A stretch of 32,057 nucleotides of DNA, taken from contig DYMH01000031.1 in assembly GCA_020721645.1 (NCBI GenBank), positions 1 to 32,057 on the forward strand. Reading direction: 5' to 3'. The notes beneath the pieces were generated by a model that worked only from the letters and a program-made list of their open reading frames with translations, made no database searches and was not told where the DNA came from. The stretch comes from Draconibacterium orientale (GTDB lineage: Bacteria > Bacteroidota > Bacteroidia > Bacteroidales > JAADGE01). The position numbers were made by a program, and so were the translations under genes. Of the stretch, positions 4,401 through 31,884 are shown in pieces (positions within the stretch are counted from its first letter, which is position 1; every line of letters starts with the position of its first letter).

Positions 4401-7400
4401 AATTGTTAAATCGAAGCAAACGCCATCTGCTCCCGAATTGAGTATCGGATTCCAATGGTCGGTTTCATCGATATTCGGAATCAAAGCAATGTCGTTTGCA
4501 GTGGGTACAAGGTGTGGGGCTAATGTGTTCCAATTGAGCTGATTGTTCCAATCGGAACTCACAGAGCCTACCCAAACATATTTGTTGTGAGTGTTGGTCC
4601 ATTGAACAAGTCCTGTTAAAGCTCCTCCGTCGGGAATATCGTTTTCGTAATTTTCGCCGGCAACACTTCCAAGTGCATCTTCAAAAGTAATAATACCTGT
4701 TCCCGATAAGCGTTTCACATTAACCGAGGCTCCTCCGTGAAAATAAACGCCGGTTGCGGTGAAGTCTGCAAAGTCGTTTTCGAGCCATAGGTATTGTCCG
4801 GACGAAGTTCCGTTTCTCCAAATACCGTTCGAGAAGTTGTTTGTGGCATCGATGGTGGCTCCGGGAAGAATATGAAACCCGTTGATGTTTGTGTTCAGGA
4901 TATTATAGTTTTGGGCATGAATGGTTCCGCCAAAGTTCACATTGAGGGCATAAGTTCCTGTTTCGGATTGAATATATGCCGGATTGTCAATATCGGTACC
5001 CAAAATAATGAGTGTTCCGGCTCTGTTTACTTCAACCGATGCGTTATTTCCCGTTTTCAAATATGCGTTTCCGTTGATATTTAAAATTCCGCCGGCAATT
5101 GTCAGAACATCTGTACTACTACCGTCTCCCATGTTAAATTCTCGATGGTTAAGGTCGAAAGTTCCTGAGTTTACGTTTAAGTTATGCAGTAACCTGAGAT
5201 TGTTCGTTGTAAGTTGTACCGTTGTTGCTGAATTTGCCGAAATATCAATATTATAAAAACTTGAAGTTCCGGGATTGAAAACTTGTGATACATTTGTTCC
5301 TGCAAGTACCAATTTGCCTGTTTGAGAGGTAAATATATCGTTATTAGAAAAATTCCCTTTCACAGTGAGAATGCGATTGGTGGCTGCAAGGTCAAAATTC
5401 CCGTTGAGTATTCTAAATTCATTATTAACGGTTAAATCGTGTGCCAGTTGAATGACAGATGCCGTATTTATTTCTAAATTATAGAAATAATCGTTCAGGT
5501 TATTAATTGATTTAATACCGAGAGGTGAATTGAAAATAACAGTACCTTGCCCGGCAGTAAACATGCCGGAATTTCCCCAATTTCCGCCAACCGACATTTT
5601 GTCGTTTGTTGAATTCATCACAATGTTTCCGTCAAAAATAACATCACCTGCAATTTCGAGAGTTGTAGTAACAGTTGCTGCTGTATTTAACGTAAGTATT
5701 GCATTTTGTTGAATATCAATGGTTTTTGAAACAGCTCCATCGTGGTCGATAATCGGTTGATTGGTTCTTTGCCCGATAACAACATTATCCGAAATCAGAG
5801 GTATTCTGTTCGGGCCGGAGTTTACTTCCCAGTTTGAGATTTTATACCAATCGTTATCCGTATTTCCTGTCCACATCACATAAGGCGGCGAAATCCAATT
5901 GATAAGGCTTCGGTCATCGTTGTCAAAATCTTCGCCTGCAAATGAACCCGAATAGTTCGCGAAATCCAGAGTCCCGCCCACAGCAATTGTTTTCGTAACA
6001 TTGCTTGCACCTCCTGCCGGATTGAAAGGAAATGAGACCTCGGTAATTGGGTTTCCTCCTGCTTGGGAGAAATCCTGATTATTTTCAATTCGCAGACATG
6101 TTCCTCCGTTAGTGGAGTTGGTAAATGTTCCGTAACTGAAATTATAAGCCGGGTCGATAATACCGCCATCTTTGATATAAATTCCGGCTTCTGCCATGTA
6201 TTCGAACAAATAGTTTCTTGCCTTGATTGTGCCGCCATTTTCGATGTTGAAATAATATCTGCCTGCATAATTTGTAACCGTTGCAACATTTGCAGCTTCT
6301 CCAACGACATCAATTTCGCCGCCCGAATTGACTTTTAATGTACCGTAATCGGGAAGTTTTAGTATTCCTCCGGCTCCGATTTTGTATGTTCCCGATATTT
6401 CGTGAACTTCACCATAATCTCCCATTCTGACAACTCTTCCGTTTCCATCGAAAATTCCGGCAATCAGGTTAAAATTCCCATTCATTTGGAGGGTATCCTG
6501 TAAATAATAAGTTGCACCCGAATTGATGGTAAGATTGTTGAGAATGGAATTATTTAATAATAAATTTGATACGCCTGTCGGTTTATTCAAGTAATATGTT
6601 CCGGTGGTAGCGAAAGTACCCGAAAGTGCCGACATATCACCGCCGACATACATGATTTGGTCTTGATACATAATTCCGTTGATAACTCGCAAATTATTTT
6701 GAACGGTGATGTCTGTCCAATGGGCGCGAAGTTCGCCGGCATCTTTATTAACAGTTAATTTATAAAATGGATTGGTGTTTTTGCTTGCTTCATAGATGTA
6801 TAGATAGGAATAAGCATCGCTGCCGTCGAAGATGACTTCACCCTGCCGAGGATTGAAGGTTGCTCCTGATTGATTATACCAACTACCTTCGATATTGATG
6901 CGATAGTTATTTGTTGTAACATCTAACGAAGCATCATCGTAAAAATAGAGTATTCCGTTAATATCCAGATGCCCTGCTGCTGTCTTGGCACTGTTGTCGA
7001 GATAAACTCTTCCGTAAACCACGGGAACGGCCGCAATTGTTTGAGGCATTGTTCCGTCGTACATGGTATAACTGTTTTCATCGAGATTAAAAGTTGTGAA
7101 TCCGGCAGGGAAATTGTTTGCTCCGCGAACATACAGATATTTATCGGCAACGATTGAAAGTGTGCCTGTACCGAGAGTATTTGTAATTTGATATGTTTGC
7201 AGATTAAGATAGATACAAGGTGCTATTATTGAAATATCACCTGTGATATCGGTGTTTCCTTCCAAAATAACGCCTCCGTTATTTTTCAATAAAAGCGTGT
7301 TAAATTTTGAGGCTGCAATGTATTGATAACCTTCACGGTCAAATTCGATAATTCCCGAACCTGAGAAAGCTCCTGTACCAATCCAGCGAGGACCGGAAAA

Positions 7401-13400: not shown

Positions 13401-15788
13401 TCCTTCGATGTAAATGTATTGTTCGGTTTCAACAGATACGCCGGCTTGGATAACCAAGTTTTTTAAAATATCCAGAGTTCCGGAAATGGTCTTTGTTCCT
13501 GAGCCTGAAAAAGAGACATTAGAGAAATGCGATTGACTGATATCTTGTGTTGTTCCGTCGAATATTACATTATTGGTTCCGGTTAGGTTAGTGGTTGCAA
13601 GGCTCATTTTCCAGTCGCCCGCAACATTTATTTGACCAGATAAGTAAGTAAGAACCGGCGTATAACCAACGGCAGCCATGTCACCATTTATGTCGAGATT
13701 TGATTGTGGATTTTTAGTGTTATCACCGTAGAGTTCAACATTTCCGTAAGTGAAACCGCCGGGAATGTTTTGATTTGAGCCGTTAACAGTTCTGTTGAAA
13801 CGAACTGTACTGTTCACATCAAATGTTTTCCCCGAAAAACCGGCAATTGACGTTTGAAAGGTATTTGTACCGCTTGTGAGCAACCATACATAAGCACCAA
13901 GGTTGAAGTTGCTGCCGCCTGTAATTTTATTTTCATACATATCAATATAAAGCCGGTTTGCATTATCACCTCCTGAATTTGTTGCAGAGAAGTTACCGTT
14001 TACTATGATGTTATCATAAAAACGCTTGTAATGTACCGTTGTGGGTGCTGTATTTGTAATTGTGAGGTTATTAAATGTATATGTTCCTGAACCTCCGTTA
14101 TAAATGTGTTGATCAGCATCAGGGGCATCAAGTGTAACCGAACCGGTTGAAGTTAAAGAACCGTTCCCGCCAAGATCATCGGTATTTACAATAGAACCGG
14201 CGATGGTGTGGCTGTATGCTCCCATTTGAAAATTTACATTACTGTATAAATACAAATTACCGTTAATATCCAAATTATTGCTTGCTGTTTTTGTGTTGTA
14301 ATTCAAATATAAATGCCAGTACGTTACCGATGAATTAATTGTTTGAGCAATATCCGTATCATAACGTGCAAAAGAGTTTGGGTCGAAGGTGATTGTACCA
14401 AATCCGGTAGGGAAATTATTTGCCCCTCTGATGTATAAATATTTGCTGCCTTTGACGAGCAATGTTTTTCCGGCTTGCCCGATGAGTTGAGAACCATTGT
14501 TGATTACAAGGTAATTATAATCGGTGTTATCTTCTAAACCCACGGTAACATTACCGTTTACACGCATAATATCATTTGAGCCTACATGAAGGTATTGAGC
14601 AATAATATTTGCAGTTCCTACGGTGAAATCGCCGTCTCCGCCGTCATCGTAAAATGTTCCGCCGGTTGAAGTGATTGTTCCGCTCAAATTACAGGTTCCG
14701 TCAATACGAAAACCGTTGAGGGTGTGATTATTTCCGCCGTCATTCAGGACTGCGTCGTTATATATGTAGGTCAGCCCTTTGGCAATCATGTTTCCTGAAA
14801 TTGTTTTAGGAAATCCGACACCTCCGTTATCAAAATAAACTTCGTAAAATTCAACATTTGAAGTTCCTGCGGTAGTTCCTATCGTAATTGTTTGTGTTTC
14901 GGTTGCCGAATTGAATAATACCTGTCCGGCTGTTGCTTCGTAGGTACTTCCGTCAGCTGTTGTAAAATTTCCTTGAAAAATATTGTATTGAGATGATTTT
15001 ACCTCCGTATTATTCAGAATATTAAAATCGTTAGTAACTGTGGTTGCAGCTCCAATAATACCAATTCCTGCACCGTTGAATGTTAAATTATGAAATGTTG
15101 CAATTTCTGTAATAGACTGTATTAGTGGAGCATTCATGATAATCGTTCCGTTTCCGGTCATTTGCCCGGTTCCGTTTTCTGTCCAGTTTCCGGCAACGGT
15201 GTGCGTTAAACCTCCATCGGCAAAAGTAGCTCCGTTATCAATAACAACAGCACCTTGAATATCAAATGCCACGCCGGCTGTTACTGTTCCTGTGTTGAAA
15301 GTTACTTTTGCAAATTGCGGCGTATTTGCTCCTCCGGCAGTTATTGGTCCTTTGAAAACAATGTCCGCAGTTTGGCTCGAAGTATTGTAAAAATCAAGTA
15401 TTCCGTTGTTTGTCAGGTTGCCTTGAAATGTTACAATGTGGGTAATGTCAAACGAACCAACGGTAAAATTCCCTCCGGCTGCAACAGATGTAAATCCTGT
15501 AACGATTAGGTTTCGTGATGTTGCATCGTTACCGATTACAAAATTTCCGTTTACTGTTAAACTTAAAATCGTTGCATCTTGATTTAAAGTAACAGTTGCT
15601 CCGGCAACTATTGTTACATCATCTGCTGCACCGGGAACTATACCGCCCGTCCAGGTTGTCGCGGCATTCCAAAGTCCGCCTCCCACTGTTGAGGATATTG
15701 AGGCAGCTTGGGAAGCTGAACTTAATGAAACAAAATAAAACAGAGCAATGATGCTCTGTATAATATAATTCTTGGTAATTTTTTTCAT
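1425..15788 (-). CDS. giant T9SS-secreted repeat protein (surface adhesin-like)
   Basis: The gene encodes about 4787 residues. A signal peptide (MKKITKNYIIQSIIALFYFV..., cleavage after about residue 28) opens the protein. Most of the length is degenerate short repeats of the type GNLTVNG...GNWTNNGTF...GTVTFNGT.QTI, rich in Gly, Asn and Thr and poor in Cys, as expected of a right-handed beta-helix. Modules of the type W.G....W....NW....VP recur near residues 35, 1384, 2532, 3305, 3736 and 4237. Residues ~4350-4700 form a non-repetitive domain (GWNFIGNPYPAHIDW) often found before T9SS tails, and residues ~4705-4787 are a type A sorting domain (Por secretion tail; INILGQ, LPAGTYIVKL). The product should cross the outer membrane by T9SS and be attached to the surface or released. 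I chose the ATG at 15788, not the in-frame ATG at 15842: it gives a clean signal peptide, and a perfect -7 box (15812-15819) lies between the two. The ligand is unknown. Confidence 0.93.
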   Translation of the reverse strand: MKKITKNYIIQSIIALFYFVSLSSASQAASISSTVGGGLWNAATTWTGGIVPGAADDVTIVAGATVTLNQDATILSLTVNGNFVIGNDATSRNLIVTGFTSVAAGGNFTVGSFDITHIVTFQGNLTNNGILDFYNTSSQTADIVFKGPITAGGANTPQFAKVTFNTGTVTAGVAFDIQGAVVIDNGATFADGGLTHTVAGNWTENGTGQMTGNGTIIMNAPLIQSITEIATFHNLTFNGAGIGIIGAATTVTNDFNILNNTEVKSSQYNIFQGNFTTADGSTYEATAGQVLFNSATETQTITIGTTAGTSNVEFYEVYFDNGGVGFPKTISGNMIAKGLTYIYNDAVLNDGGNNHTLNGFRIDGTCNLSGTITSTGGTFYDDGGDGDFTVGTANIIAQYLHVGSNDIMRVNGNVTVGLEDNTDYNYLVINNGSQLIGQAGKTLLVKGSKYLYIRGANNFPTGFGTITFDPNSFARYDTDIAQTINSSVTYWHLYLNYNTKTASNNLDINGNLYLYSNVNFQMGAYSHTIAGSIVNTDDLGGNGSLTSTGSVTLDAPDADQHIYNGGSGTYTFNNLTITNTAPTTVHYKRFYDNIIVNGNFSATNSGGDNANRLYIDMYENKITGGSNFNLGAYVWLLTSGTNTFQTSIAGFSGKTFDVNSTVRFNRTVNGSNQNIPGGFTYGNVELYGDNTKNPQSNLDINGDMAAVGYTPVLTYLSGQINVAGDWKMSLATTNLTGTNNVIFDGTTQDISQSHFSNVSFSGSGTKTISGTLDILKNLVIQAGVSVETEQYIYIEGNWTEQTTGQFHQTGGITTFDGTTANQTVAANANSYFYNLYIDKPGANKLVTINTNIDINGTFNFVEDHAAFDMNGRDFRVARDFYFREGCTFIHHNGKAYFDGIDAAQLIRNYHTNTIVFADVEFSGTAVKRLYDNSFRFQGNVTINNTTLDGQYWDHFVEGNWINTGIFRHNNTIYFDGTSPQSISQSSFHSIRLQKPNTKTLTGDINLTGDLWIEDATLDVGALSYSITLDDYWHNESTGSFMAHEGTVTVTGEYNRIFTGKTNTQHGTGQITTLGGTKDFYNLTINATNSDYWMFIHGNLTVKNNFEIVKGRFYQSYDAGTYGINDIEVGGNFIHHGSLYNNNYGEKITLNPTSGNHTFDPGTSNTYSILNFEGAAGTSYTFESSLSLYNNRAITITNGDLYLNSNKITTNDAGGDITMNGGSLSVNEDASVSMGSGATFTNAGGIFSLTGISDKPASLIATTGTFIFAQTTGIIHAQNYRIAGTSGNGINITGGTIDATNTFQNGSFSSGNGTAYLTTTGINLGGDRLIQNVTFNTGPSSNVQRTSGNGAMNFENATGTLAGEDYDSDNASPGTLINWSYPGAVYWDGNTDGDGDNTHWNDPFNWASNSVPTATSIVILDHSAVAGSYTVDLNTVADGLAKSIIINSGTNQIALVLNGFKLTVAENITIGANSVLTQTNAGDIITLGGSWSNEGTFNEGSSSVVFNPATGTHTITTKGAADPFFNLTINGTGGTNVISSPLDIDGNIELQGGTLNAGTNTITIAGNWTRTGGAIFNYGTSTVNFNNAGNQNINGGEFYNFTTSNSGTKTATANIDINNNLIIEAGTIFDGGTNIIYVGRDWTNNVGNAGFTQTGSGSVIFDGEANTQNICSASTQETTFNNVTITGTQTKYTRKNIIINGNLVINSAALYIVDGTTINGAGGTNTLNMSTGRIYVNGANNFPQNFETINLSGGTVDYYANINQTIYPTTYYQLMVRRINTLNATTKTVAGDITVNESLYIYDNETTLNVADHTINLWGNLSLETGGPQIIWGTNGTLNHFGEYFTVDADITGFNNVIKKNRGYFRVVSQNLNISGDVSILEDAYLQQETVNITSTGVGKTFTLAATAYVNDYNPATVGNAFPVEFTTYNLHKDSRVYIRGTVGDQIIYTKPNYGNLYIYTDAEINISLDGNLDVEGSFQMVYNDPTLIDNGHNINIAGATVDIRKYTPSGSTTMTFDGADQRIYDAGQGATVFDMKNAIFAGTGTKSIYYGGEDYINVTGNLTVNAGVTLYCPYRMDFSGSTWTNNGIFNNTGYVINFTGTAAQSIDPGAQNDFYAVAFSNAGIKSFINHGINVNNGTFTVGNGTNVNMNNLTHNIASERITNNGGTWATDNASFIWDRNGTQYIPAMAAKDFTFRRYDQWDRVRQLIGDINIENLNIEQGTQLRCSQDAETSTPTYNVTMYGNFTNNGYLYAWGNIFAFESNTTNAKTIKQGLGSFDNVTFNQSMGSQETRTYTLTEETRFYEDLIIGSGATLDLNGQILRLGNDDPNDPVEPQAEQHLVQTGGTLDVDAGASLIFSCRDLGNPQLNVVGTLKMLGTTGNNATITSTDWHTNTHRIDININSGGKIHAQYYLMKYLTDDGFYVDAGATIDPTNDFSNGTWSDLSGIAGSRYLYCNANVSALGTVDNLTFNYNGTPTAGTHFNVKRDALSTGVLTFGGTCSGLLAGKTYEADPLGENNSGTSLIAWPVPTEAYWVGTVSTDWFTANNWSPANVPTNLTNAIIPLRSNNPVITGQNAVCKDLTITDGFLTMRAGWDLTVSGDVYVGTGTNVGILAVEDAGCSMSVLGNWTRGQNGLFVHGNGTVIFNAAGGSISIDPRDSEFGNITFNGGATFMLNRAEIFVDKDFTISVGTVQPIVNNYLLHIKGNYNSIAGSSFDNTTQGTVLFDGTNNQTITNANLWNVTVNGSDNKTTAGTCSINGNLIVKNGTLVGGNVIDLNNYVTIEATGGFNDGGFTHTFSGPRWIGTGAFSGSGIIEFDREGYQYIAASKFNTLLLKNNGGVILEGNTDITGDISIIAPCIYLNLQTYQITNTLGTGTLSIVADKYLYVRGANNFPAGFTTFNLDENSYTMYDGTMPQTIAAVPVVYGRVYLDNSAKTAAGHLDINGILYFYDDASLDVTTNNYRINIEGSWYNQSGATFNPRQGEVIFDGSDAYSYLYIYEASKNTNPFYKLTVNKDAGELRAHWTDITVQNNLRVINGIMYQDQIMYVGGDMSALSGTFATTGTYYLNKPTGVSNLLLNNSILNNLTINSGATYYLQDTLQMNGNFNLIAGIFDGNGRVVRMGDYGEVHEISGTYKIGAGGILKLPDYGTLKVNSGGEIDVVGEAANVATVTNYAGRYYFNIENGGTIKARNYLFEYMAEAGIYIKDGGIIDPAYNFSYGTFTNSTNGGTCLRIENNQDFSQAGGNPITEVSFPFNPAGGASNVTKTIAVGGTLDFANYSGSFAGEDFDNDDRSLINWISPPYVMWTGNTDNDWYKISNWEVNSGPNRIPLISDNVVIGQRTNQPIIDHDGAVSKTIDIQQNAILTLNTAATVTTTLEIAGDVIFDGNIVMNSTNDKMSVGGNWGNSGMFTAGQGTVIFNSPLGIKSINNLNDYFYNLEINTASVIQLAHDLTVNNEFRILNGNFDLAATNRILTVKGNFSNNDIFTSQTGKLVLAGTNVSQVFNPGTSSFYNIDISANSATTVQLTTNNLRLLHNLNVNSGTFDLNHREFNMGDGSSTDVLTIAGGILNINGNAYLKTGNNASVEVNRAGTLIILGTDIDNPAYIQSETGTYALNVNFGGTIHAQNYNILNTNINGFHILPGATIDATNNFSNGIWRNGTSSGQYLWLENDFADFTATGVYFHGGASVNVKRLSGTGIITFEDALGSVAGENYENDIPDGGALTGLVQWTNTHNKYVWVGSVSSDWNNQLNWNTLAPHLVPTANDIALIPNIDETDHWNPILNSGADGVCFDLTIENSGFLTIGSNKNLDADNSIVVGLGGKLTVESGSGSNINVADIYIMEGTFVHGGSSTVIFDAPAGKILAISSSSNFWNLTINSIGNAEYSTGTSLHVDGTFNINHGVFTVSDPTDKIYVGQNWINNATFNHGDGNVILNGTNQSITNTGTGNFYNILLEGTNTKTLASNVTVENDISVNSGATFAGGSHSLTLFGDWSNKGIFSPGTSTVNFLGNSTQLIFNYNDEKFYNFTLNNTSSAYPQVILYSDLTLSANSMWTMMDGIFETSPTEMLIVEDNVTLVGGNTNASYVSGPITKIGNDDFVFPLGQGSIFARLAMNIDNASGSATFVAQYHNSPYSDISNFLAPLNHVSGSEYWTLDRTAGTQTPFVTFYWEDGALSGIDKISSLTTALYVTNQWEDRGQASTTGTIAQGTITSSLAFTTFGACGFGSMDTDNPLNSYNSWTGNISTQWNNPNNWTRGVPTISLNSLISGTPANQPIIDNDAVAAQLILSDGAQLTINPLKSLTVSGRFYINGSLLLQSDATGNSSLINNSTISYGATSAVTTQLYLSGLKYHHVASPTAATHADRFKSDPYLPYYNPNFYSYNEPGSTWDQLGADWIEYSGNMTPMTGYTYYVDRDLTVLIERTNSGDFNTGDKSKNLTYTGVSESEMLKKGWNFIGNPYPAHIDWDNAAWTKTNIYNSVYFWNGLNYSYFVAADGAQNTQAGVNEATGIIPPMQGYFVKVKEGIPTTDNQTGTLITPASARTTSTHAFYKATQLKNKQMLDLIRLNVTRNGITDETAIRFNTNATTGFDDNYDAFKLFPGDWYETPQIYSFTDNGTRAAINSLPSYFDDLIIPLGFKATITGEYSLSVSDLTLDENTEVWFEDILESKIYELSGLNYTFNSEVGQFDNRFRIIFALAPSTVPNIANENPNVDIFSNGNDIYLKSGTPNAIIGSVHLINILGQTAFQTSNSTEGFARINVKSLPAGTYIVKLTGKYGVFTKKIFLVGQ
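4497..4933 (-). repeat. internal protein supermodule, copy D
   Basis: This part of the giant gene encodes GGTIHAQNYNI, then GATIDATNNFSNGIW, then AGENYENDIP, and ends with the YVWVGSVSSDWN...NW...VPT module. The whole block is about 145 residues. Boundaries are approximate. Confidence 0.75.
5796..6236 (-). repeat. internal protein supermodule, copy C
   Basis: The order is the same as in the other copies: GGTIKARNYLFEYM, GGIIDPAYNFSYGTF, AGEDFDNDDRSLINW, then MWTGNTDNDWYKISNW...IP. The copy is about 147 residues long. Sequence identity to the other copies is modest, which suggests old duplications. Confidence 0.75.
8131..8585 (-). repeat. internal protein supermodule, copy B
   Basis: The block reads GGKIHAQYYLMKYL, GATIDPTNDFSNGTW, LAGKTYEADPLGENN, then YWVGTVSTDWFTANNW...VPT. 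It is about 152 residues long and slightly expanded in the middle compared with copies A, C and D. Confidence 0.75.
11551..11985 (-). repeat. internal protein supermodule, copy A
   Basis: The block reads GIIHAQNYRIAGT, GGTIDATNTFQNGSF, LAGEDYDSDNASPGTLINW, then YWDGNTDGDGDNTHW...NW...VPT. It is about 145 residues long and is the most N-terminal full copy. Confidence 0.75.
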
Positions 15789-15811
15789 AGGGATACATTT
15801 TAAAATCAAGA

Positions 15812-15819
15812 CAAAGATA
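15812..15819 (-). promoter_or_regulatory. -7 promoter box for the giant gene
   Basis: On the minus strand this reads TATCTTTG, a perfect match to the Bacteroidota -7 consensus TAnnTTTG, and lies 23 bp before the ATG at 15788. The -33 element is weak: ATTG at 15836-15839, with a short spacer of about 16 bp. Transcription would start near 15806, which excludes the longer in-frame start at 15842. Confidence 0.5.
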
Positions 15820-15842
15820 TTAAATAAAAAGTTGTCAATCAT

Positions 15843-16933: not shown

Positions 16934-18496
16934 ATGGAACACATTGATTTTTCGCTCGTGGATTGGTCTCGAGCCCAGTTTGCCCTCACTGCAATGTATC
17001 ATTGGCTTTTTGTGCCACTGACTTTGGGCCTTTCATTTATTGTGGCGTTCATGGAAACGAAGTATGTGCGCACAGGCAATCCGGAGTGGAAACGCATTAC
17101 TAAATTCTGGATGACATTGTTCGGAATCAATTTTGCTATTGGTGTGGCAACAGGCATTATCCTCGAATTTGAATTTGGAACCAATTGGTCAAATTATTCA
17201 TGGTTTGTGGGTGATATTTTTGGTGCACCCTTAGCTATAGAAGGAATTATGGCTTTCTTTATGGAAAGTACTTTTATTGCCATTATGTTTTTTGGTTGGA
17301 ACAAAGTAGGTAAAAAATTCCATTTAGCATCAACATGGCTTGTGGCAATCGGTTCCAATCTTTCGGCACTCTGGATATTGGTGGCCAATGCGTGGATGCA
17401 AAATCCGGTAGGCATGAAATTCAATCCCGATACTGCACGCAACGAAATGGTCAATTTCTGGGAAGTCCTTTTTTCGCCCGTAGCCATCGATAAATTCACA
17501 CACACCATTTTGTCGGGTTACGTTTTGGCTTCCATTTTCGTAATTGGAATAAGTGCTTGGTTTTTATTGAAAAACAGAGAACACGTGTTTGCAAAAAAGA
17601 GCATTCGTCTTGCAACGATATTCGGACTAATTTCTGCTGTTCTCATTGCCATAACAGGCGATAATTCGGCAAAAATGGTAGCAAAACACCAACCCATGAA
17701 ATTTGCCGCCATCGAAAATCTCTATCACGGAGAGGCAAACGCTCCGCTTACAGCAATCGGCATGTTGCAACAAAGCAACGAGCCTGCCAAACACGATTTT
17801 GTGTTCAAAATTCAAATACCCGGAATGCTGTCCTTTTTAGCATTCAACAATACCGATGCTTTTGTACCCGGCATCTACGATTTGCTTAACGGAAACCCCG
17901 AACACAATATCCTTTCGTACAAAGAACGCTGCGAAAAAGGCAAAATCGCCATTACATCGCTCGGAGAATATAAAACCGCCAAAAAATCGGGTAACGACAG
18001 CCTTGCCAAAGCAGCCCTCATACGATTTGAAGAAAATTATCCGCATTTTGGCTACGGATATTATGCCGACAGAGACCTGACCGAACTCGTGCCCAATGTT
18101 CCCGTAAATTTTTATTCATTCCGCATTATGGTTGGCTTGGGATTTTATTTTATTTTATTCTTTGCAATCATTTTATTTTTTGCGTTGAAAGATAAACTGC
18201 AAAACAAACGCTTCTTACTCTATACTGCCCTCTGGACAATACCTTTGGCATATATTGCTGCCGAATTGGGTTGGGTTGTTGCCGAAGTTGGTCGCCAACC
18301 ATGGCTGATACAAGATATTTTGCCCACAATTGCTTCGGTTTCGCAAGTTACACCCGCTTCGGTGCAAATAACATTTTGGCTCTTTTTTGTAATTTTTACA
18401 GGTTTGCTTATTGCAGAAATAAAAATTATGCTCACCCAAATTAGAAAAGGACCTGAAAATGCAGCAGAAGTTACTCAAAATTCACAAATTAATTAA
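16934..18496 (+). CDS. cydA: cytochrome bd quinol oxidase subunit I
   Basis: CydA carries the three hemes of cytochrome bd and the quinol site, and reduces O2 to water at the inner membrane using quinol. At 520 residues it is the length of E. coli CydA (522). Heme ligands are visible by position: His23 (AMYHWLF) and His190 (FTHTILSGY), matching the E. coli b595 and b558 histidines, and Met399 in FYSFRIMVGLG for heme b558. The quinol-loop motif KHQPMKFAAIE and the family signature GWVVAEVGRQPW are intact. The quinol loop is of the short type. The gene lies between DUF4492 (8 bp gap) and cydB (17 bp gap) in a clear operon. The enzyme has high O2 affinity and, in species studied, tolerates sulfide, which fits the sulfur-linked operon downstream. 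Confidence 0.97.
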   Translation: MEHIDFSLVDWSRAQFALTAMYHWLFVPLTLGLSFIVAFMETKYVRTGNPEWKRITKFWMTLFGINFAIGVATGIILEFEFGTNWSNYSWFVGDIFGAPLAIEGIMAFFMESTFIAIMFFGWNKVGKKFHLASTWLVAIGSNLSALWILVANAWMQNPVGMKFNPDTARNEMVNFWEVLFSPVAIDKFTHTILSGYVLASIFVIGISAWFLLKNREHVFAKKSIRLATIFGLISAVLIAITGDNSAKMVAKHQPMKFAAIENLYHGEANAPLTAIGMLQQSNEPAKHDFVFKIQIPGMLSFLAFNNTDAFVPGIYDLLNGNPEHNILSYKERCEKGKIAITSLGEYKTAKKSGNDSLAKAALIRFEENYPHFGYGYYADRDLTELVPNVPVNFYSFRIMVGLGFYFILFFAIILFFALKDKLQNKRFLLYTALWTIPLAYIAAELGWVVAEVGRQPWLIQDILPTIASVSQVTPASVQITFWLFFVIFTGLLIAEIKIMLTQIRKGPENAAEVTQNSQIN

Positions 18497-18513
18497 CCTA
18501 AAAATTAAACATC

Positions 18514-19686
18514 ATGTTTGAAACTTTTTCATATCTCTTCTTGCAACAATATTGGTGGATTATCGTATCACTTTTGGGTGCAATTCTTGTGTTTCTGATG
18601 TTCGTACAAGGCGGACAAACATTGATATACACACTCGGAAAAACCGAAGACGAACGTACTGTTTTAGTCAATCTTTTAGGCAGAAAATGGGAATTTACAT
18701 TCACAACTTTGGTAACATTCGGAGGTGCATTTTTCGCATCATTTCCTTTATTCTATTCCACAAGCTTCGGCGGAGCTTATTGGGTTTGGATGTTAATATT
18801 GATAGCTTTTGTCGTACAAGCTGTTGCCTACGAATATCGTAGCAAACCAAATAATTTTTTAGGACAAAGAACCTTCGAAATTATGCTTTTTGTAAACGGA
18901 TTGTTAGGAACAGTACTGATTGGAACAGCAGTTGCAACTTTTTTCACAGGCTCTGCATTTTCGGTCGATAAAATGAATCTCACATTACTCACCGGCGATA
19001 AAATGCCAATAATTTCCGAATGGAAAGGACTTGCATACGGGCTGGAAGCCGCTTTGAATCCACTGAATTTATCTTTGGGACTCACGGTATTCTTCTTATC
19101 TCGCGTGTTAGCCATCTTATATTTTATGAATCGTGTTCGCAACATCGAAATCATTGAACGAGCAAAAAAACAACTGATTTACAATGCTATTCCGTTTGTT
19201 GTTTTCTTCTTAACCTTCGCAATTTGGTTGATGCTTTCATCAGGTTTCGCCGTAAATCCCGAAACGAAAGAAATCTTTGTCGAACCCTTCAAATATTTTC
19301 ATAATTTGATACAAATGCCCGTTGTTGCCGTATTATTTGTCATCGGCGTGCTTATGGTACTAATTGGTATTATTCGTCCAATAACTTGCTTTGAAAAATG
19401 CAACACCAAAGGCATATGGCTTAGTGGTATCGGAACAGTGCTGACTGTCTTTTCGCTTTTCCTTTTTGCAGGTTTTAATAATACTGCCTATTATCCTTCA
19501 ACTTTCGATTTACAAAGCTCATTGACAATAGAAAACAGCTCATCAAGCCAATATACTTTAACAGCAATGAGTTATGTTTCACTTCTTGTACCTTTTGTTA
19601 TTGCTTATATTTGGTTTGCATGGAGGGCAATGGACAGCAAAAAAATCGACATCGAAGAAATGAAATCTGAATCTCACATTTATTAG
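18514..19686 (+). CDS. cydB: cytochrome bd quinol oxidase subunit II
   Basis: CydB is the heme-free partner of CydA and forms the second half of the oxidase in the inner membrane. The 390-residue product has about eight to nine hydrophobic helices and is close in length to E. coli CydB (379). It begins with an aromatic-rich N-terminus (FSYLFLQQYWWIIVSLLGAI) and has the early segment QGGQTLIYTLGKTEDERT, where most CydB proteins carry the comparable Gly-Gln-rich first loop. It follows cydA by 17 bp. A strong terminator lies 32 bp after its stop, so it is the last gene of the operon. No cydC or cydD gene is in the window. Confidence 0.96.
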   Translation: MFETFSYLFLQQYWWIIVSLLGAILVFLMFVQGGQTLIYTLGKTEDERTVLVNLLGRKWEFTFTTLVTFGGAFFASFPLFYSTSFGGAYWVWMLILIAFVVQAVAYEYRSKPNNFLGQRTFEIMLFVNGLLGTVLIGTAVATFFTGSAFSVDKMNLTLLTGDKMPIISEWKGLAYGLEAALNPLNLSLGLTVFFLSRVLAILYFMNRVRNIEIIERAKKQLIYNAIPFVVFFLTFAIWLMLSSGFAVNPETKEIFVEPFKYFHNLIQMPVVAVLFVIGVLMVLIGIIRPITCFEKCNTKGIWLSGIGTVLTVFSLFLFAGFNNTAYYPSTFDLQSSLTIENSSSSQYTLTAMSYVSLLVPFVIAYIWFAWRAMDSKKIDIEEMKSESHIY

Positions 19687-20375: not shown

Positions 20376-21986
20376 ATGAAAAAAGCAATTCTTCTTATCA
20401 TTGGATTTAATTTACTGATTTTAATTGGCATTTATGTTTTTAAACAAGATGATGTTGTTGATATAAAATTGGAAAAATTAAAACAAACTTATGCAGTAAA
20501 ACCCATTGCATCTGTCGATCATTCGAAACTTCCGGCACTTCAAAAAGTTTTTAAAACTCCGCAGGAAGTAACTTTGGCGTGTATTTCGTGTCACAACGAA
20601 TCTGCAAAAGAAGTGATGACCTCGTCGCATTGGAATTGGGAGCGTGCCGGATATATCGAAGGACGCGGCGTTGAATTTTTGGGAAAAAAGAATATCATCA
20701 ACAACTATTGTCTTAGTTCCAAAGACAACGAGCAAGCTTGTGCCAAATGCCACATTGGTTATGGAATGAAAAATAACGACACCTATAATTATAGAGATTC
20801 GAGCAATGTCGATTGTATGGTATGTCATGACAATAGCGAAACCTACCAAAAAGGCTCTTCAATGGCAGGAAATCCGGACAGAAATGTAAATTTGGCAAAA
20901 GTTGCACAAAGTGTTGGTTTGCCTATAAAAAGTAATTGCGGTTCGTGTCATTTTTACAGCGGCGGAGGTAACAATGTAAAACACGGCGACTTAGAAGAAG
21001 CACAGTTTAATTGCAGTCGTGATGTCGATGTTCACATGGCTTCCGACGGACTGAATATGGAATGTGTAGCTTGCCATACCGCAACCAATCACCAAATGAA
21101 AGGACGTTTATACTCCGTTTCATCAGATGACCAAAACCGTGCATATTGCGAAGATTGTCATACCTCAACTCCGCATTTAGATAAAATTTTAAATACACAT
21201 ACGGCACGAATTGCTTGTCAAACATGCCATATACCCGAATATGCCAAAGTAAATTCCACCAAAATGGATTGGAAATGGTCTGATGCAGGTAAATTAAAAG
21301 ATGGGAAACCATACGAAACTGAAGATTCTCTTGGCAACCATGATTATATGTCGATTAAAGGATCTTTTATCTGGAAACGTAATATAAAACCTGATTATGT
21401 TTGGTTCAACGGAAATGCAGGACACTACATCATCGGAGACAAAATCACCTCTACTCCGATTCAATTAAACACACTCAATGGCTCGTATAACGATAAATAT
21501 TCAAAAATTATACCCGTAAAAATAAGTACAGGCGATCAAATTTATGACAAAGAGTATAATTATTTGATTATTCCCAAATTATTCGATCCCGAGAAAGGAG
21601 ACAGTGCATATTGGCAAGATTTCAATTGGAATGATGCTGCAACTGCCGGTATGAAACATATTGGGTTGCCTTTCAGCGGATCATACGGATTTGTCAATAC
21701 CGAGATGTATTGGCCCATTAACCACATGGTTTCACCAAAAGAAAAATCGGTAAGCTGTGCCGAATGTCATACCCGTGATAATGGCAGATTAGCAAAATTG
21801 GGCGGGTTTTATCTGCCCGGACGCGACAGAAATACCCTTTTGGATTTCTTTGGAAAGTGGTTAATTATTCTTTCAATTATTGGAGTTGTAATTCACAATT
21901 CGATGCGAATATTTACCGCTTATCGAAATAAACAAGTAGAAACCAAAATTATTAATTATAAAATCAACGATGATGACAACGAATAG
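20376..21986 (+). CDS. octaheme c-type cytochrome, tetrathionate reductase (OTR) family
   Basis: This 536-residue protein has eight CxxCH heme-binding motifs, beginning at Cys69, 122, 147, 188, 230, 258, 281 and 461. The spacing, with a long gap before the last heme, and the block NNYCLSSKDNEQACAKCHIGYG around the second motif fit the octaheme tetrathionate reductase family typified by Shewanella OTR. OTR proteins reduce tetrathionate and, in vitro, also nitrite and hydroxylamine, so the natural substrate here is not fixed. An N-terminal hydrophobic helix (residues 3-22) directs export. A second helix near residues 490-510 (WLIILSIIGVVIHNSMRIF) should anchor the C-terminus in the inner membrane, leaving the hemes in the periplasm. 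The stop overlaps the start of the cytochrome b gene by 17 bp, pointing to tight co-expression and a likely complex. Confidence 0.88.
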   Translation: MKKAILLIIGFNLLILIGIYVFKQDDVVDIKLEKLKQTYAVKPIASVDHSKLPALQKVFKTPQEVTLACISCHNESAKEVMTSSHWNWERAGYIEGRGVEFLGKKNIINNYCLSSKDNEQACAKCHIGYGMKNNDTYNYRDSSNVDCMVCHDNSETYQKGSSMAGNPDRNVNLAKVAQSVGLPIKSNCGSCHFYSGGGNNVKHGDLEEAQFNCSRDVDVHMASDGLNMECVACHTATNHQMKGRLYSVSSDDQNRAYCEDCHTSTPHLDKILNTHTARIACQTCHIPEYAKVNSTKMDWKWSDAGKLKDGKPYETEDSLGNHDYMSIKGSFIWKRNIKPDYVWFNGNAGHYIIGDKITSTPIQLNTLNGSYNDKYSKIIPVKISTGDQIYDKEYNYLIIPKLFDPEKGDSAYWQDFNWNDAATAGMKHIGLPFSGSYGFVNTEMYWPINHMVSPKEKSVSCAECHTRDNGRLAKLGGFYLPGRDRNTLLDFFGKWLIILSIIGVVIHNSMRIFTAYRNKQVETKIINYKINDDDNE

Positions 21987-22632
21987 AATTTATATCTACA
22001 AAAGATTTGAACGTTTCTGGCATTGGACGCAAGCCGCACTAATTATTTTTTTAGCCATTACAGGTTTTGAAATTCATGATTCCATTCATATTTTCGGATT
22101 TCAAAAAGCTGTTCAATTTCATAATTTTGCTGCAATTGCTCTTATTATTCTTATCGCATTTGCCATATTTTGGCATTTAGCATTCGATGAATGGAAGCAA
22201 TACATTCCCACTCAAAAAAAATTAGTGGAACAAATAAAATATTATTTATTTGGCATGTTTAAGGGCGAAAAACACCCTACCGAAAAAAATGCACTTCAAA
22301 AATTAAATCCACTTCAAAGATTAATATATCTTGGGTTCAAATTATTTATGGTCCCCGTTGTTGTGATTTCCGGATTGCTTTACATGTTCGATAAAACCAT
22401 CGATGCAAACGGCATTGTTGTCAGCAGTGGGATAAAACTCGAAAATATTGCGGTTTGGCATACTTTCGGAGCATTTTTACTTATTGGATTTCTTATCGTA
22501 CATGTGTATATGACAACCACAGGGCACACTTATACCTCGAACATAAAAGCAATGTTTACCGGTTACGAAGATGTTGAAACCGAAGAACATGTTGAAAAGG
22601 CAAGTGAGGAAACTGAATCAAATAAAATTTAA
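21970..22632 (+). CDS. membrane cytochrome b (b561/Ni-hydrogenase type)
   Basis: The 220-residue protein has four predicted membrane helices and the histidines expected of a di-heme cytochrome b: RFWHWTQAALI in helix 1, FHNFAAIALI and WHLAFDEW around helix 2, and WHTFGAFLLIGFLIVHVYM near the end. It resembles the cytochrome b subunits of hydrogenases, formate dehydrogenases and multiheme reductases that exchange electrons with quinol. The acidic tail (about residues 198-220) is probably cytoplasmic. The gene overlaps the octaheme cytochrome gene by 17 bp, so I infer that it oxidises quinol and passes electrons to that cytochrome, or accepts them in reverse. A second ATG directly follows the chosen one, so the start may be one codon later. 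Confidence 0.85.
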   Translation: MMTTNRIYIYKRFERFWHWTQAALIIFLAITGFEIHDSIHIFGFQKAVQFHNFAAIALIILIAFAIFWHLAFDEWKQYIPTQKKLVEQIKYYLFGMFKGEKHPTEKNALQKLNPLQRLIYLGFKLFMVPVVVISGLLYMFDKTIDANGIVVSSGIKLENIAVWHTFGAFLLIGFLIVHVYMTTTGHTYTSNIKAMFTGYEDVETEEHVEKASEETESNKI

Positions 22633-22649: not shown

Positions 22650-23177
22650 ATGCAGGCGAAACCATTCATGAACCCATACTTTGCGGGTTTTTTACTCGGA
22701 CTCGTTTTATTGACCACAATATATGTTACCGGTCGCGGACTCGGAGCCAGCGGAGGAACAAAAAGTGTGGTTACCTCCCTCGTAAAAAACGTAACACCCG
22801 AACATTATTCAACCACCAAATATTATCAGCAAGGAGAAGCCGAACATCATGGAAATCCTCTTAAAAATTGGTTGTTATTCGAAATAATCGGTGTTTTTAT
22901 CGGAGCTTTCATCTCCGGTGTAATTTCTGACAGAGTCGGTTTGAAACTCGAAAAAGGACCGGGCGTTGGAAATAAAACACGCATTATTGCCGCAATAATA
23001 GGTGGTTTATTATTCGGATTAGGCTCTCAATTCGGAAGGGGTTGCACAAGCGGTTCTGCACTCAGCGGAATGGCTGTGATGTCGTTCGGAGGAATTATTA
23101 CAATGCTGGCAATTTTCGGCTCGGCATATATGTTGGCTTATTTTTTTAGAAAACTTTGGATAAATAAACAAAATTAA
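22650..23177 (+). CDS. YeeE/YedE family sulfur transporter, first half
   Basis: This 175-residue membrane protein has about four hydrophobic helices and the family motif FGRGCTSGSALSGMA near residue 130, where the Cys is the expected relay residue for sulfur compounds. The best-studied member, TsuA (YeeE), imports thiosulfate through a chain of cysteines. Many Bacteroidota split this fold into two half-size genes, and the following gene supplies the other half 1 bp downstream of this stop. The two products probably form one channel in the inner membrane. Substrate identity is not shown by the sequence; thiosulfate, sulfite or a reduced sulfur species are the main options. The gene starts 17 bp after the cytochrome b stop, inside the same unit. 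Confidence 0.85.
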   Translation: MQAKPFMNPYFAGFLLGLVLLTTIYVTGRGLGASGGTKSVVTSLVKNVTPEHYSTTKYYQQGEAEHHGNPLKNWLLFEIIGVFIGAFISGVISDRVGLKLEKGPGVGNKTRIIAAIIGGLLFGLGSQFGRGCTSGSALSGMAVMSFGGIITMLAIFGSAYMLAYFFRKLWINKQN

Positions 23178-23178: not shown

Positions 23179-24372
23179 ATGGGACCATTAGTACCGGATA
23201 TTCTCAGCAACGAATTTAGTTTTGTTGTTGCATTAGTGATTGGAATTGCCTTTGGATTTGTTTTAGAACAAGCAGGATTTTCAACCACAAAAAAATTAGT
23301 AGGACTATTTTACGGCTATGATTTTACCGTATTAAAAGTTTTTTTTACAGGCGGCATTGTCGCCATGATAGGCGTTGTTATATTGGGGCATTTCGGAATT
23401 TTAGATTTAGACCTGATTTATGTTAATCCTACCTTTCTTCGATCGGCATTAATAGGCGGCGGAATTATGGGAGCCGGTTTCATAATTGGAGGTTTTTGCC
23501 CCGGAACCAGCATTTGTGCCGTGGCTACCGGAAAAATTGACGCTTTTTGGTTCATCATTGGTTCATTGATAGGCATCTTAATTTTTATGGAATTTTATCC
23601 GTCGTTTGAAAAAACGTATTTTGCCGATAATATGGGCAATCTGAGAATGGATAAATATTTAGGGATGTCCCAAGAATTATTTGCAACTCTGCTCACAGCA
23701 TTGGCAATTTTAGCGTTCTTTTTTACCCAAAAAATTCAAAACAAAGTTCGCAATGATCAATCTGTCTATCCAAAAGAAAAAAAGATAAGATACAGTATTT
23801 TTGCTGCCATACCTTTTATTATAATTATCATCGTTGTATTAACCCCAAGTTTTGAGCAACATATAATCAATAAGGCAAATATGGTTGAGAATCAAAAATC
23901 AGCAAAAGAAATGACAGCCGATAAATTGGCGATTGATCTTGCGAATAATTATTATCAAATCAATTTGATAGACCTTAGAAGTCCCGAAAAATATAAAGAA
24001 TATCACTTACCGCTCTCAATCAATATCCCATACGACAGTCTGCAAAACCGCGAGTGGAAAAATTATTTCAAGCAAAAATATAAAACAAATATTTTCTATT
24101 CCGATTCTATCGATATTGCCCGAAAAGCGTATGTTATTGCTACAAATATCGGCGATGCTGAAACATATATTCTGCATGAAAATATCTCAGAATTTAAAAA
24201 ACAGAATTTAGATACTCATGTAGCACCCGTTTCTGCTACAAAAGAAGAACAGCAGCTTGTTGAATTTCGGAACGAAACAGCACGAAGAATATTAGACTTA
24301 GAAAATAAACTGAAAAACCAAATGCAACCTGCAAAAAAAGAAATTAAAAAGGTAAAAGGCGGATGCAGCTAA
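23179..24372 (+). CDS. YeeE/YedE transporter half fused to a cysteine-less rhodanese-like domain
   Basis: Residues 1 to about 190 are the second YeeE/YedE half, with the motif GGFCPGTSICAVATGKIDAFW carrying two cysteines. A further membrane helix (about 209-226, FAAIPFIIIIIVVL) is preceded by many Lys/Arg, so by the positive-inside rule the tail should face the periplasm. Residues ~250-345 fit a rhodanese-like domain (LIDLRSPEKYKEYHLPLSINIP). The catalytic-loop position that normally has Cys is Ser308 (NIFYSDS), so it should not act as a classic sulfurtransferase. The remaining tail is charged and helical and ends GGCS, placing one Cys at the penultimate position. The gene begins 1 bp after the first half. 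It may bind a sulfur substrate and pass it to the channel, but that is inference. Confidence 0.83.
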   Translation: MGPLVPDILSNEFSFVVALVIGIAFGFVLEQAGFSTTKKLVGLFYGYDFTVLKVFFTGGIVAMIGVVILGHFGILDLDLIYVNPTFLRSALIGGGIMGAGFIIGGFCPGTSICAVATGKIDAFWFIIGSLIGILIFMEFYPSFEKTYFADNMGNLRMDKYLGMSQELFATLLTALAILAFFFTQKIQNKVRNDQSVYPKEKKIRYSIFAAIPFIIIIIVVLTPSFEQHIINKANMVENQKSAKEMTADKLAIDLANNYYQINLIDLRSPEKYKEYHLPLSINIPYDSLQNREWKNYFKQKYKTNIFYSDSIDIARKAYVIATNIGDAETYILHENISEFKKQNLDTHVAPVSATKEEQQLVEFRNETARRILDLENKLKNQMQPAKKEIKKVKGGCS

Positions 24373-24451: not shown

Positions 24452-25633
24452 ATGAACACAGAAAAATCAGGATTCAACACAAAATTAATCCATGCCGGCG
24501 AAATACACGACCAATTCGGTTCGGCAACCGTACCAATTTATCAAACATCAACATTTTCTTTTGAAAGTGCAGAAGACGGAGCAAAATGCTTTGCAGGCGA
24601 AAGCAACGGTTACATGTACACACGCATTGCAAATCCAACCATCGATGCACTTGAACGACAAATAGCTGCTCTCGAAAATGGTTTCGGAGCCGTTGCCGTA
24701 AGTTCCGGAATGGCTGCTGCCACTACGGTGTATTTATCATTGCTCAGTCAAGGCGACCATATCGTCAGTACCGATGCAATTTACGGACCGGCTCGCGGTG
24801 TGATGGAAAAACAATTTGTCCGTTTCGGAATCGAATCAACCTACATCAACACAACCGATGCCGCAAATGTGAAAGAAGCCATTCGCCCCAACACAAAAGT
24901 GGTTTATATTGAAACTCCCGCAAATCCAACAATGGATATGACCGATTTGAGAGCAGTTGCCGAAATTGCTCATCAACATGGTTGCTTGTTGGTTGTAGAT
25001 AACACATTTTGCAGCCCCTATCTGCAAAATCCCTTAGATTTTGGAGCAGATGTCGTTTTTCATTCGATGACAAAATTCATTAACGGGCACGCCGATATTG
25101 TTGCCGGAATAATCATCGCCAAAGAAGAACAACTCTACAAACAAATACGTAATATGATGGTATTGATGGGTTGCAATATGGATCCACATCAAGCTTATAT
25201 GGTATTACGCGGTGTTAAAACATTGGGAATAAGAATTGACCGGGCACAAGAAAGTGCATTGAAAGTAGCTGAATATTTGGAAAATCACCCCAAAGTGGCA
25301 TGGGTAAAATATCCCGGTTTGAAATCGCACCCACAATACGAATTAGGCAAAAAGCAAATGCGTGGCGATGGTTCCATGATTAGTTTTGGATTGAAAACCG
25401 GCTACGAAGGAGCCAAAAAATTGATGAACAACGTTCATTTAGCCCTATTAGCAGTTTCTTTGGGCGGTGTGGAAACACTCATTCAGCATCCGGCATCAAT
25501 GACACATGCCAAAGTTTCGGCACAAGACAAAGAAAAAGCAGGAATAAGCGACGATTTGATTCGTTATGCCGTTGGTATTGAAGACGTAAACGACATAATT
25601 GATGATTTAAAACACGGCTTAGACAAAGTTTAA
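24452..25633 (+). CDS. PLP-dependent methionine gamma-lyase / sulfhydrylase family enzyme
   Basis: This 393-residue protein belongs to the Cys/Met metabolism PLP enzymes (gamma family). The PLP lysine is Lys208 in HSMTKFINGHADIVAG. The phosphate-binding SSGMAA segment (near residue 90), the YTRIANPT motif (Tyr and Arg from the neighbouring subunit) and the EAL-type ALERQIAALE helix are intact. Members make or break C-S bonds: methionine gamma-lyase releases methanethiol, cystathionine gamma-lyase and synthase act on cystathionine, and homoserine sulfhydrylases fix sulfide. The Cys that follows Tyr-Gly in classic methionine gamma-lyases is Pro113 here (YGPARGV), so the exact reaction is open. 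It lies 79 bp after the transporter gene with no terminator between, so I place it in the same sulfur-related unit. The product is cytoplasmic. Confidence 0.85.
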   Translation: MNTEKSGFNTKLIHAGEIHDQFGSATVPIYQTSTFSFESAEDGAKCFAGESNGYMYTRIANPTIDALERQIAALENGFGAVAVSSGMAAATTVYLSLLSQGDHIVSTDAIYGPARGVMEKQFVRFGIESTYINTTDAANVKEAIRPNTKVVYIETPANPTMDMTDLRAVAEIAHQHGCLLVVDNTFCSPYLQNPLDFGADVVFHSMTKFINGHADIVAGIIIAKEEQLYKQIRNMMVLMGCNMDPHQAYMVLRGVKTLGIRIDRAQESALKVAEYLENHPKVAWVKYPGLKSHPQYELGKKQMRGDGSMISFGLKTGYEGAKKLMNNVHLALLAVSLGGVETLIQHPASMTHAKVSAQDKEKAGISDDLIRYAVGIEDVNDIIDDLKHGLDKV

Positions 25634-30306: not shown

Positions 30307-31884
30307 TTAAATCATTTGAATGCCAATAACAGTAACATCGTCGCGTTGTACTTCGTTTTTTCGATGATTGTTGAAAATAGAAATCAGACTGAGTTCTTGA
30401 TTTTCTATCGACAAATCGGAGATTGATTCAATAATTTTGATAAAACCCAAAGACCCTATTTTTTTTCGTTCCGGCGAATTTTGGTCGAGGATTCCGTCAG
30501 TTATCAGATATAACAAATCATCGGGTTCAAAAACGAGTTCGCGGTCGCTGAAAAATGTTGTGTCATAGTGTTGTCCTCCAATAGTTTTCACATCTCCACG
30601 CAACTTCTGAACGATTCGATGTTTTTTTCGAAAATAAAAGATTGATTGTTTGGCACCTGCAAAAGTAACCTTGGTTCGATTGTCCGAAATTTTCTCAAAT
30701 TTGCACAGCGAAATGTCCATTCCGTCTTGATTAAACGATTTTTGTTGGTTAAGTATATTGTGAACATTTCGGTTAAGCGTTTCAAGGATTTCACTGGGTT
30801 TATAAATTTTTCTTTCGTCCACAATTTCACTCAGCAAACGACTTCCGATTAAAGACATGAAAGCTCCCGGAACTCCGTGTCCGGTGCAGTCGGTAACCGC
30901 AAGGAAAAAGAAATTCGTATTTTCGGGCGATGAGAACCAATAAAAATCGCCGGAAACAATATCTTTGGGTCGAAAGAAAACAAAAGCATTCAATTTTTTA
31001 GTCAGAAGTTCTATCGGAGGCAGGGTTGCCTGCTGTATTGTAAGAGCATATCGCAAAGCAGCATTGGTATTTTCGGCAAATTTTGCCAGCTCGTAATTTT
31101 TCTTTTCCAATTCATCGCGTTGTGCAGAAATTTCTTCGTTCTGTTGTTTTATTTCATTTTCGGCAAGTTTTCGAGCCGTTATTTCGGTATCAACAGCAAT
31201 CAATCTTTCAATTTCGCCGTCCTTGTTCAACATCGGACTGAGTGTTGTTTGTACCCAAACTCGATGTCCCGATTTTGTTTCATCGGTAAATTCGTATGAA
31301 ACCGGAACTTTATCTGAGATGCACCGGTTGAGGGTTTGGAGAACTCTTTCGTTGGGGGCGGCAGTAAAAATATTCCTCTTTTTTTCGGCAAATTCATCTA
31401 TTGAGAGTTCGTAAAGCCGAGTAAATGCTTCGTTTACAAACTCAAAAGTACCTTGACTGTCCATAATAACAACAGCGTTATCTATTTTATTCACCGTATA
31501 TTGCAATCGGTCTAACTCTTTTTTTAATTGGGCATTATATTTTTCTGTGATTTTAGACTTCTTTTTTTCGGTGTTGAGTTGTTCTTTTAATTCATATAAA
31601 TCTTTACTTTGGTTGTGAAATGTTTTTTTTATTTTTTTATTTTGAGATTTTAGAATAAAAATCAAAAATATAAGCATTAATATTAGAAATATAGAAAGAA
31701 AATAAAGTGTCATAAAATTTGGTTCAATTGTTGTTTTAAAAATGATATAAGCGGGAAAAACGAAATCATTATCAGTAAAAACAATATTTTGGGGAAAGTA
31801 AAAGTTATTAAATAAGTTGATGTCGAAAAAAATATATTCTGTTCGATGAATTTCAAATAAAATATTTTCCGGCAAAATTAACAT
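30307..31884 (-). CDS. membrane-anchored PAS-SpoIIE (PP2C-type) phosphatase
   Basis: This 525-residue signalling protein has one membrane helix (~60-80, LYFLSIFLILMLIFLIFIL), a coiled coil (~90-125), a PAS domain with its C-terminal cap (~126-240, VNKIDNAVVIMDSQGTFEFV, then VAVDTEITARK), a second short coiled coil (~243-270), and a SpoIIE/RsbU-type serine phosphatase domain (~295-525). The metal-binding acidic residues are present: SGDFYW, VTDCTGHGVPGAFM, ITDGILDQ and QRDDVTVIG. Such enzymes dephosphorylate anti-anti-sigma proteins or similar partners when the PAS domain senses a signal. No partner gene (STAS or HATPase kinase) is nearby. The start is uncertain: Met58 at 31713 would give a 468-residue protein beginning right at the membrane helix, and residues 1-57 have the Phe/Ile/Asn bias of translated AT-rich DNA. 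Confidence 0.88.
   Translation of the reverse strand: MLILPENILFEIHRTEYIFFDINLFNNFYFPQNIVFTDNDFVFPAYIIFKTTIEPNFMTLYFLSIFLILMLIFLIFILKSQNKKIKKTFHNQSKDLYELKEQLNTEKKKSKITEKYNAQLKKELDRLQYTVNKIDNAVVIMDSQGTFEFVNEAFTRLYELSIDEFAEKKRNIFTAAPNERVLQTLNRCISDKVPVSYEFTDETKSGHRVWVQTTLSPMLNKDGEIERLIAVDTEITARKLAENEIKQQNEEISAQRDELEKKNYELAKFAENTNAALRYALTIQQATLPPIELLTKKLNAFVFFRPKDIVSGDFYWFSSPENTNFFFLAVTDCTGHGVPGAFMSLIGSRLLSEIVDERKIYKPSEILETLNRNVHNILNQQKSFNQDGMDISLCKFEKISDNRTKVTFAGAKQSIFYFRKKHRIVQKLRGDVKTIGGQHYDTTFFSDRELVFEPDDLLYLITDGILDQNSPERKKIGSLGFIKIIESISDLSIENQELSLISIFNNHRKNEVQRDDVTVIGIQMI

Follow-up and report, generated by a model that had tools for sequence, protein, structure and literature searches.

How sulfur is presented on the periplasmic side to YeeE-type transporters is an open question (PMC11582611). 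It is raised by a gene from Draconibacterium orientale (contig DYMH01000031.1), in which one half of a split transporter of this type is fused to a rhodanese domain. The window, i.e. the whole stretch of DNA analyzed, is 32,057 nucleotides long. An earlier note had described the fusion from sequence alone, with Ser308 replacing the catalytic cysteine and a C-terminus reading GGCS, and this description held when the ORF, the Pfam matches and the individual residues were checked. The question is what a rhodanese without its catalytic Cys, but with a Cys at its very end, does on a sulfur transporter.

The fusion ORF starts one base past the stop codon of the 175-residue half-transporter gene (Table 1). 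Hydropathy analysis indicates six membrane helices, and cysteines are limited to positions 107, 113 and 396. Residues 301–312 read YKTNIFYSDSID, with Ser308 at the rhodanese Cys position. In the AlphaFold2 model, based on 64 homologues, the rhodanese domain is confidently folded (block means mostly ≥88), the next helix spans residues 355–378, and the tail beyond it is disordered (58 and 41). Foldseek matches of the domain include the rhodaneses BH2092 and RDL2; the rhodanese fold is present and the catalytic loop Cys is absent. A disordered tail after a confidently folded domain fits the mobile Cys arm suggested in the earlier note.

The rhodanese domain is inferred to lie on the periplasmic side. 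This placement, previously proposed from the positive-inside rule, is supported by the loop ahead of the last helix (residues 187–206), which carries six Lys/Arg versus two acidic residues, by homology to TsuA, and by stand-alone relatives whose N-terminus bears a membrane anchor or which have a lipoprotein-like signal. TsuA is a nine-helix protein (PMC11582611) whose partner YeeD binds on the cytoplasmic side (PMC11073785). By homology, the five-helix half 2 would therefore start outside and end inside, such that the sixth helix would exit to the periplasm. Cys396 is the single Cys of the portion assigned to the periplasm.

Table 1. Coordinates of the cassette, of features within the fusion and of other genes in the window
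Feature	Position	Strand	Basis or remark
Very large protein, 4805-aa ORF	1425..15842	-	No Pfam match at E<=1e-5
Two CydA, CydB-like genes (cytochrome bd oxidase subunits), 5' of cassette	16934..19686	+	Translation judged by eye
Octaheme c-type cytochrome, tetrathionate reductase family (TIGR04315), 536 aa	20376..21986	+	NCBIfam
Cytochrome b561-type membrane subunit, 220 aa, presumed quinone link	21970..22632	+	Pfam Ni_hydr_CYTB E=4.1e-30
YeeE half 1 (PmpA-like, TsuA C-terminal half), 175 aa, four helices	22650..23177	+	Pfam
Cys132 of half 1, TsuA Cys293 equivalent, first channel Cys	23043..23045	+	TsuA alignment
YeeE half 2–rhodanese fusion with GGCS tail	23179..24372	+	397 aa, ATG start
YeeE half 2 (PmpB-like), aa 1–206, five helices, Lys/Arg-rich final loop aa 187–206	23179..23796	+	
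Cys107 of half 2, in GGFCPGT, TsuA Cys91 equivalent	23497..23499	+	PmpB-Cys91 equivalence from PMC11582611
Sixth membrane helix, aa 207–225, predicted to run toward the periplasm	23797..23853	+	Hydropathy 2.68; AlphaFold2 helix 199–221
Rhodanese domain, aa 260–341	23956..24201	+	Pfam E=2.5e-7; confident fold; Foldseek rhodanese matches
Ser308, catalytic-Cys position of rhodanese	24100..24102	+	
Basic disordered tail, aa 379–397, after helix 355–378	24313..24369	+	Low pLDDT; lowest dN of the gene
Gly394-Gly395-Cys396, conserved C-terminal motif	24358..24366	+	
Cys/Met-metabolism PLP enzyme	24452..25633	+	Nearest methionine gamma-lyase models, below their cut-offs
PAS-SpoIIE phosphatase-type signalling protein	30307..31884	-	

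Both transporter halves exceed the gathering score of the Sulf_transp family (PF04143), with E=4.6e-19 for half 1 (profile positions 177–308) and E=1.4e-13 for residues 33–209 of the fusion. Half 1 also matches the TsuA structures 6leo/8j4c (residues 237–330). In TsuA, thiosulfate is relayed past Cys293, Cys91 and Cys22, and YeeD adds a ‘fourth cysteine’ inside (PMC11073785). The first two are indispensable in TsuA, and their equivalents, Cys132 in the RGC motif of half 1 and Cys107 of half 2, are each kept in 137 of 138 homologues; the Cys22 equivalent is not conserved. The two halves thus belong to the YeeE/YedE (PmpA/PmpB-type) family by sequence and channel cysteines, while transport of thiosulfate or sulfane sulfur is inferred, without assay data. 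Characterized members of the family are importers (PMC11073785, PMC11582611). TusA and YeeD are absent from the cassette at the 80 homologous loci described below, and searches of the genome of the window and of several other cassette-bearing genomes gave no TusA-type acceptor; a cytoplasmic TusA or YeeD is rejected as a routine partner on these grounds. Since the genome of the window shows no TusA, export or a different acceptor stays possible.

Among 99 related genomes, 51 contain a match, with the rhodanese either fused or encoded as a separate gene beside the transporter half. When GTDB species genomes were searched with the transporter half as query, at least 553 relatives were returned, of which the best 80 loci were analyzed; their record labels are Bacteroidota, Ignavibacteria, Kapabacteria, Acidobacteriota, Fibrobacteria and LCP-89. 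None of 97 fusions has the loop Cys (Ala in 63, Ser in 17, Gly in 14, Asp in two and a gap in one). A Gly-Cys pair lies within three residues of the C-terminus in 94 of 96 complete fusions and in 55 of 57 separate rhodaneses. The Cys of the fusion tails is last or second-last and nearly always part of Gly-Gly-Cys; the Gly ahead of Gly-Cys is kept in 93 of the 94 tailed fusions, and the residues preceding it are variable. The fused exceptions are apparently L088, with an early stop, and L008, where the following ORF overlaps the frame. The periplasmic part has no Cys other than the terminal one in 58 of 102 fusions.

Conservation of Ser308 and of the final Cys, which the earlier note had proposed as a check, was therefore confirmed for the Cys and not for the Ser. 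The conserved trait of the loop is the absence of Cys, and a functional role for a conserved Ser308 is rejected, as the position is mostly Ala. The note had also stated that close homologues with an active Cys and no terminal Cys would mark the protein as a decayed copy, and the homologues show the reverse. A chance GGC end is ruled out because such ends recur in homologues and because a GGCX-stop pattern search of the window's own genome gave no other credible ORF ending in this way. The Cys-less loop and the GGC tail are a family trait, not decay. In a comparison with the nearest relative (L031), dN rises from 0.09 in the tail to 0.24 in the rhodanese domain and ~0.6 in the C-terminal helix. 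By this measure the tail is the most constrained segment of the fusion, with the reservation that the value rests on 19 codons only and that synonymous sites are near saturation in this pair.

The genomic setting is fixed. In 77 of the 80 loci, an octaheme cytochrome gene is followed by those for cytochrome b, YeeE half 1 and YeeE half 2–rhodanese, in this order, and the other three are truncated at contig ends. Draconibacterium orientale (L037) is among the carriers of the cassette. No further gene is common to the 80 loci, regulator-like genes being present at 10–13 of them, and a plasmid search gave no match. The PLP enzyme gene downstream was considered as a member of the system and rejected, being near one of the 80 loci; the cydAB-like genes are likewise near just one. 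The first gene of the cassette resembles octaheme tetrathionate reductase in that its product passes the family cut-off (564.5 bits versus 375) and has eight CxxCH motifs, and a hydrophobic membrane helix is found at both of its ends. Unlike other octaheme relatives, which occur alone or only with a cytochrome b, it is membrane-anchored and part of a fixed cassette with both a cytochrome b and a transporter. In a phylum sample counted by hand, each of 36 membrane-anchored octaheme proteins is encoded within ~3.5 kb of a tailed rhodanese; no tailed rhodanese is near the shorter octaheme forms (mostly ~456–477 residues) or near the 13 intact members of family f96. At the three f96 loci examined (L185, L186 and L187), octaheme cytochrome and cytochrome b are encoded without transporter or rhodanese. 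As these two occur elsewhere on their own, the transporter–rhodanese pair looks like an addition to a respiratory unit that already works. Nitrite and hydroxylamine are also reduced in vitro by the octaheme family (title cited in PMC11237559), and the substrate of the enzyme here is uncertain for that reason.

In a second type of operon, the genes ahead of the transporter halves encode a Tat-type molybdoenzyme together with Fe-S and NrfD-like subunits. The molybdoenzyme aligns over its full length (E=5e-203) to the structure 2vpw, which is deposited as thiosulfate reductase and is the Thermus polysulfide reductase (Psr). One to three separate tailed rhodaneses are encoded 3' of the transporter halves in these Psr-like operons. 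Some of the separate proteins are single-domain, membrane-anchored and mostly Cys-less. Others (L141–L146 and L152) are lipoprotein-like tandem rhodaneses with two intact Cys loops and the shared tail at the end, so that active and inactive rhodaneses bear one common arm. It is possible, and no more than a suggestion, that the double rhodanese loads the tails.

The tails of rhodaneses from one operon match each other. In 19 operons with at least two tailed rhodaneses, the 13 residues before GGC of the first two proteins are 66% identical within the operon versus 29% for permuted partners (p ~2e-4). The rhodanese bodies are not more similar within than between operons (28% and 33%). At identical tail residues, 193 codons agree, where local usage predicts 182.6, and 131 differ synonymously. 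Synonymous codons thus agree at the level of chance, and neither gene conversion nor a recent duplication is supported as the source of the match. Matched tails on unmatched bodies, with randomized synonymous codons, point to selection by a shared partner, which is the simplest reading and a likely one. The 19 operons are not fully independent, as some genomes are closely related, and the matching was measured in multi-rhodanese operons, not in single-tail cassettes such as that of the window. In eight genomes an EEEGGC-stop ending occurs in three copies per genome, the one extra copy being another double rhodanese. A role of the GGC tail as a genome-wide sorting signal is not supported, as EEEGGC ends are restricted to these proteins in the eight genomes.

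These data lead us to favor, by a modest margin, a membrane-tethered periplasmic sulfur-carrier arm that serves both transporter and reductase. The anatomy, the conservation, the cassette and the selection on the tail are shown. Half 1 and half 2 (residues 1–206 of the fusion) would form a split YeeE-type channel for sulfur anions, and the sixth helix would exit to a Cys-less rhodanese-fold scaffold holding the basic flexible tail, with Cys396 as the reactive group. In keeping with the C-terminal-Cys sulfur carrier that the earlier note had considered possible, Cys396 may take up sulfane sulfur or thiosulfate, present as Cys-S-SH or Cys-S-S-SO3-, although this loading is inferred. It would then swing between Cys132, at the periplasmic mouth of the channel, and the active site of the octaheme enzyme, which is presumably linked to quinone; these contacts are also inferred. 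The swing would couple sulfur redox chemistry with transport, the substrate and direction being inferred, and the arm would mirror, on the opposite membrane face, the cysteine that YeeD offers to YeeE. Support comes from the absence of a loop Cys, the terminal Gly-Cys, the retention of the essential channel cysteines, and the matching, constraint and confinement of the tails, and further from the fixed cassette with a tetrathionate-reductase-family enzyme and the second context with a Psr-like polysulfide/thiosulfate reductase. There are precedents in SoxY, which has a C-terminal GGCGG (PMC6067878), in Sud, which supplies polysulfide reductase (cited in PMC2754497), and in the reaction of a protein Cys with tetrathionate to give Cys-S-thiosulfonate (PMC4175335). 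Against the model, there is no biochemical evidence for sulfur on Cys396, and a periplasmic reductase alone needs no sulfur import. The uncertain substrate of the octaheme enzyme, the failure to find a TusA-type acceptor in the genome of the window and the limitation of the tail-matching data to multi-rhodanese operons also weigh against it.

Several other explanations were weighed. Cys396 could act as a thiol gate or redox switch, forming a disulfide with Cys132, Cys107 or another tail and thereby gating the transporter without carrying sulfur. A single invariant periplasmic Cys on a flexible tail beside a Cys-lined channel would suit such a switch; however, the tail also occurs on separate proteins, including an active double rhodanese lipoprotein, which a gate fails to explain, and the rhodanese scaffold suggests sulfur handling. 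We regard the gate as unlikely. A similarly low rank is given to a docking or attachment tag, in which the tail is read by a partner that assembles a complex, or its Cys is covalently modified, again without sulfur carriage. The match over ~13 residues within operons, produced by selection on amino acids, is what binding to a shared partner would give, but pure docking does not need an invariant Cys, and the restriction of the ending to this gene set in eight genomes indicates no general attachment system. Docking and sulfur carriage are, moreover, mutually compatible.

The direction could also be reversed, with the channel exporting a cytoplasmic sulfur species to Cys396, which would offer it to the respiratory enzyme. 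The missing Cys22 equivalent and YeeD, the lack of TusA in the cassette, the failure to find it in the window's genome and several others, and a Cys acceptor on the outside speak for this version; it remains improbable, since the characterized family members import. Decay of a rhodanese to an inactive leftover with a chance terminal Cys is all but excluded: only Ser308 in place of the catalytic Cys speaks for it, whereas nearly all homologues over several phyla are in the same state and purifying selection is strongest in the tail.

Compared with known systems, the transporter belongs with the YeeE/YedE proteins (TsuA with YeeD (TsuB), SoxT and the split PmpA/PmpB), its halves corresponding to PmpA and PmpB. 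It differs from these in the sixth helix, the periplasmic rhodanese and the GGC tail added by the fusion, and from TsuA–YeeD in the absence of a Cys22 equivalent and of YeeD or TusA in the cassette. In layout, the favored carrier arm can be compared with SoxY of SoxYZ, which is periplasmic, has a Cys between or after glycines at its extreme C-terminus and offers one arm to several partners. Unlike SoxY, the fusion has a different fold, is tethered to the membrane via the transporter and has its Cys last or second-last without trailing GG; the SoxY family is not among its Pfam or NCBIfam matches. Sud, the polysulfide-sulfur transferase of Wolinella succinogenes, is periplasmic, rhodanese-like, dependent on a single Cys and partnered with a Psr-type enzyme (cited in PMC2754497). 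The Cys of Sud is located in the rhodanese loop; the fusion differs in having no Cys there, in carrying it on the tail and in being joined to a transporter half. Co-encoding with a Psr-type reductase, as for Sud, is seen for the stand-alone relatives, and the cassette of the window instead has the octaheme enzyme. In DsrC/TusE and LbpA, sulfur is held by a Cys close to a flexible C-terminal end or by an arm that swings, and a Gly-flanked Cys close to the C-terminus is found in many LbpA (PMC6067878), but these proteins are cytoplasmic, of unrelated folds and without a membrane tether.

The component families (YeeE halves, rhodanese fold and octaheme cytochrome) are known. In the open-access literature searched, nothing was found on a rhodanese with a C-terminal GGC or on this cassette, and within that literature the family appears undescribed. 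The fusion lies outside both the classical rhodaneses, having no loop Cys, and SoxY, having no match, and possibly functions as a SoxY- or Sud-like carrier. A bolder reading, toward which the balance also tips slightly, is an undescribed class of periplasmic carriers, in which Cys-less or active rhodanese scaffolds would have a common GGC arm at the C-terminus and, either joined to split YeeE channels or encoded beside them, make up a substrate-channelling module that plugs into an octaheme or a Psr-type respiratory sulfur enzyme. The arm is a candidate answer to the question of sulfur presentation that is built physically into the transporter. It recurs over several phyla and with two sulfur respiratory enzymes, and the question thus becomes addressable through a single residue, Cys396. 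The physiological role of the octaheme tetrathionate reductase family is uncertain, and the arm would also place this family in a genomic context specific to sulfur. A further suggestion is that a GGC carrier arm originated separately from that of SoxY.

Two variations were observed among the relatives. Three Cys are present in 32 of 102 fusions. In L002 and L004, the two additional Cys are located immediately ahead of the rhodanese domain and within the helix that follows the loop; such extra Cys, which the window protein lacks, are a possible disulfide or redox pair. Among the separate tailed rhodaneses, L127, L132, L133, L135–L138 and L140 have a Lys-rich ...EGC end rather than GGC, and those examined sit in Psr-like operons.
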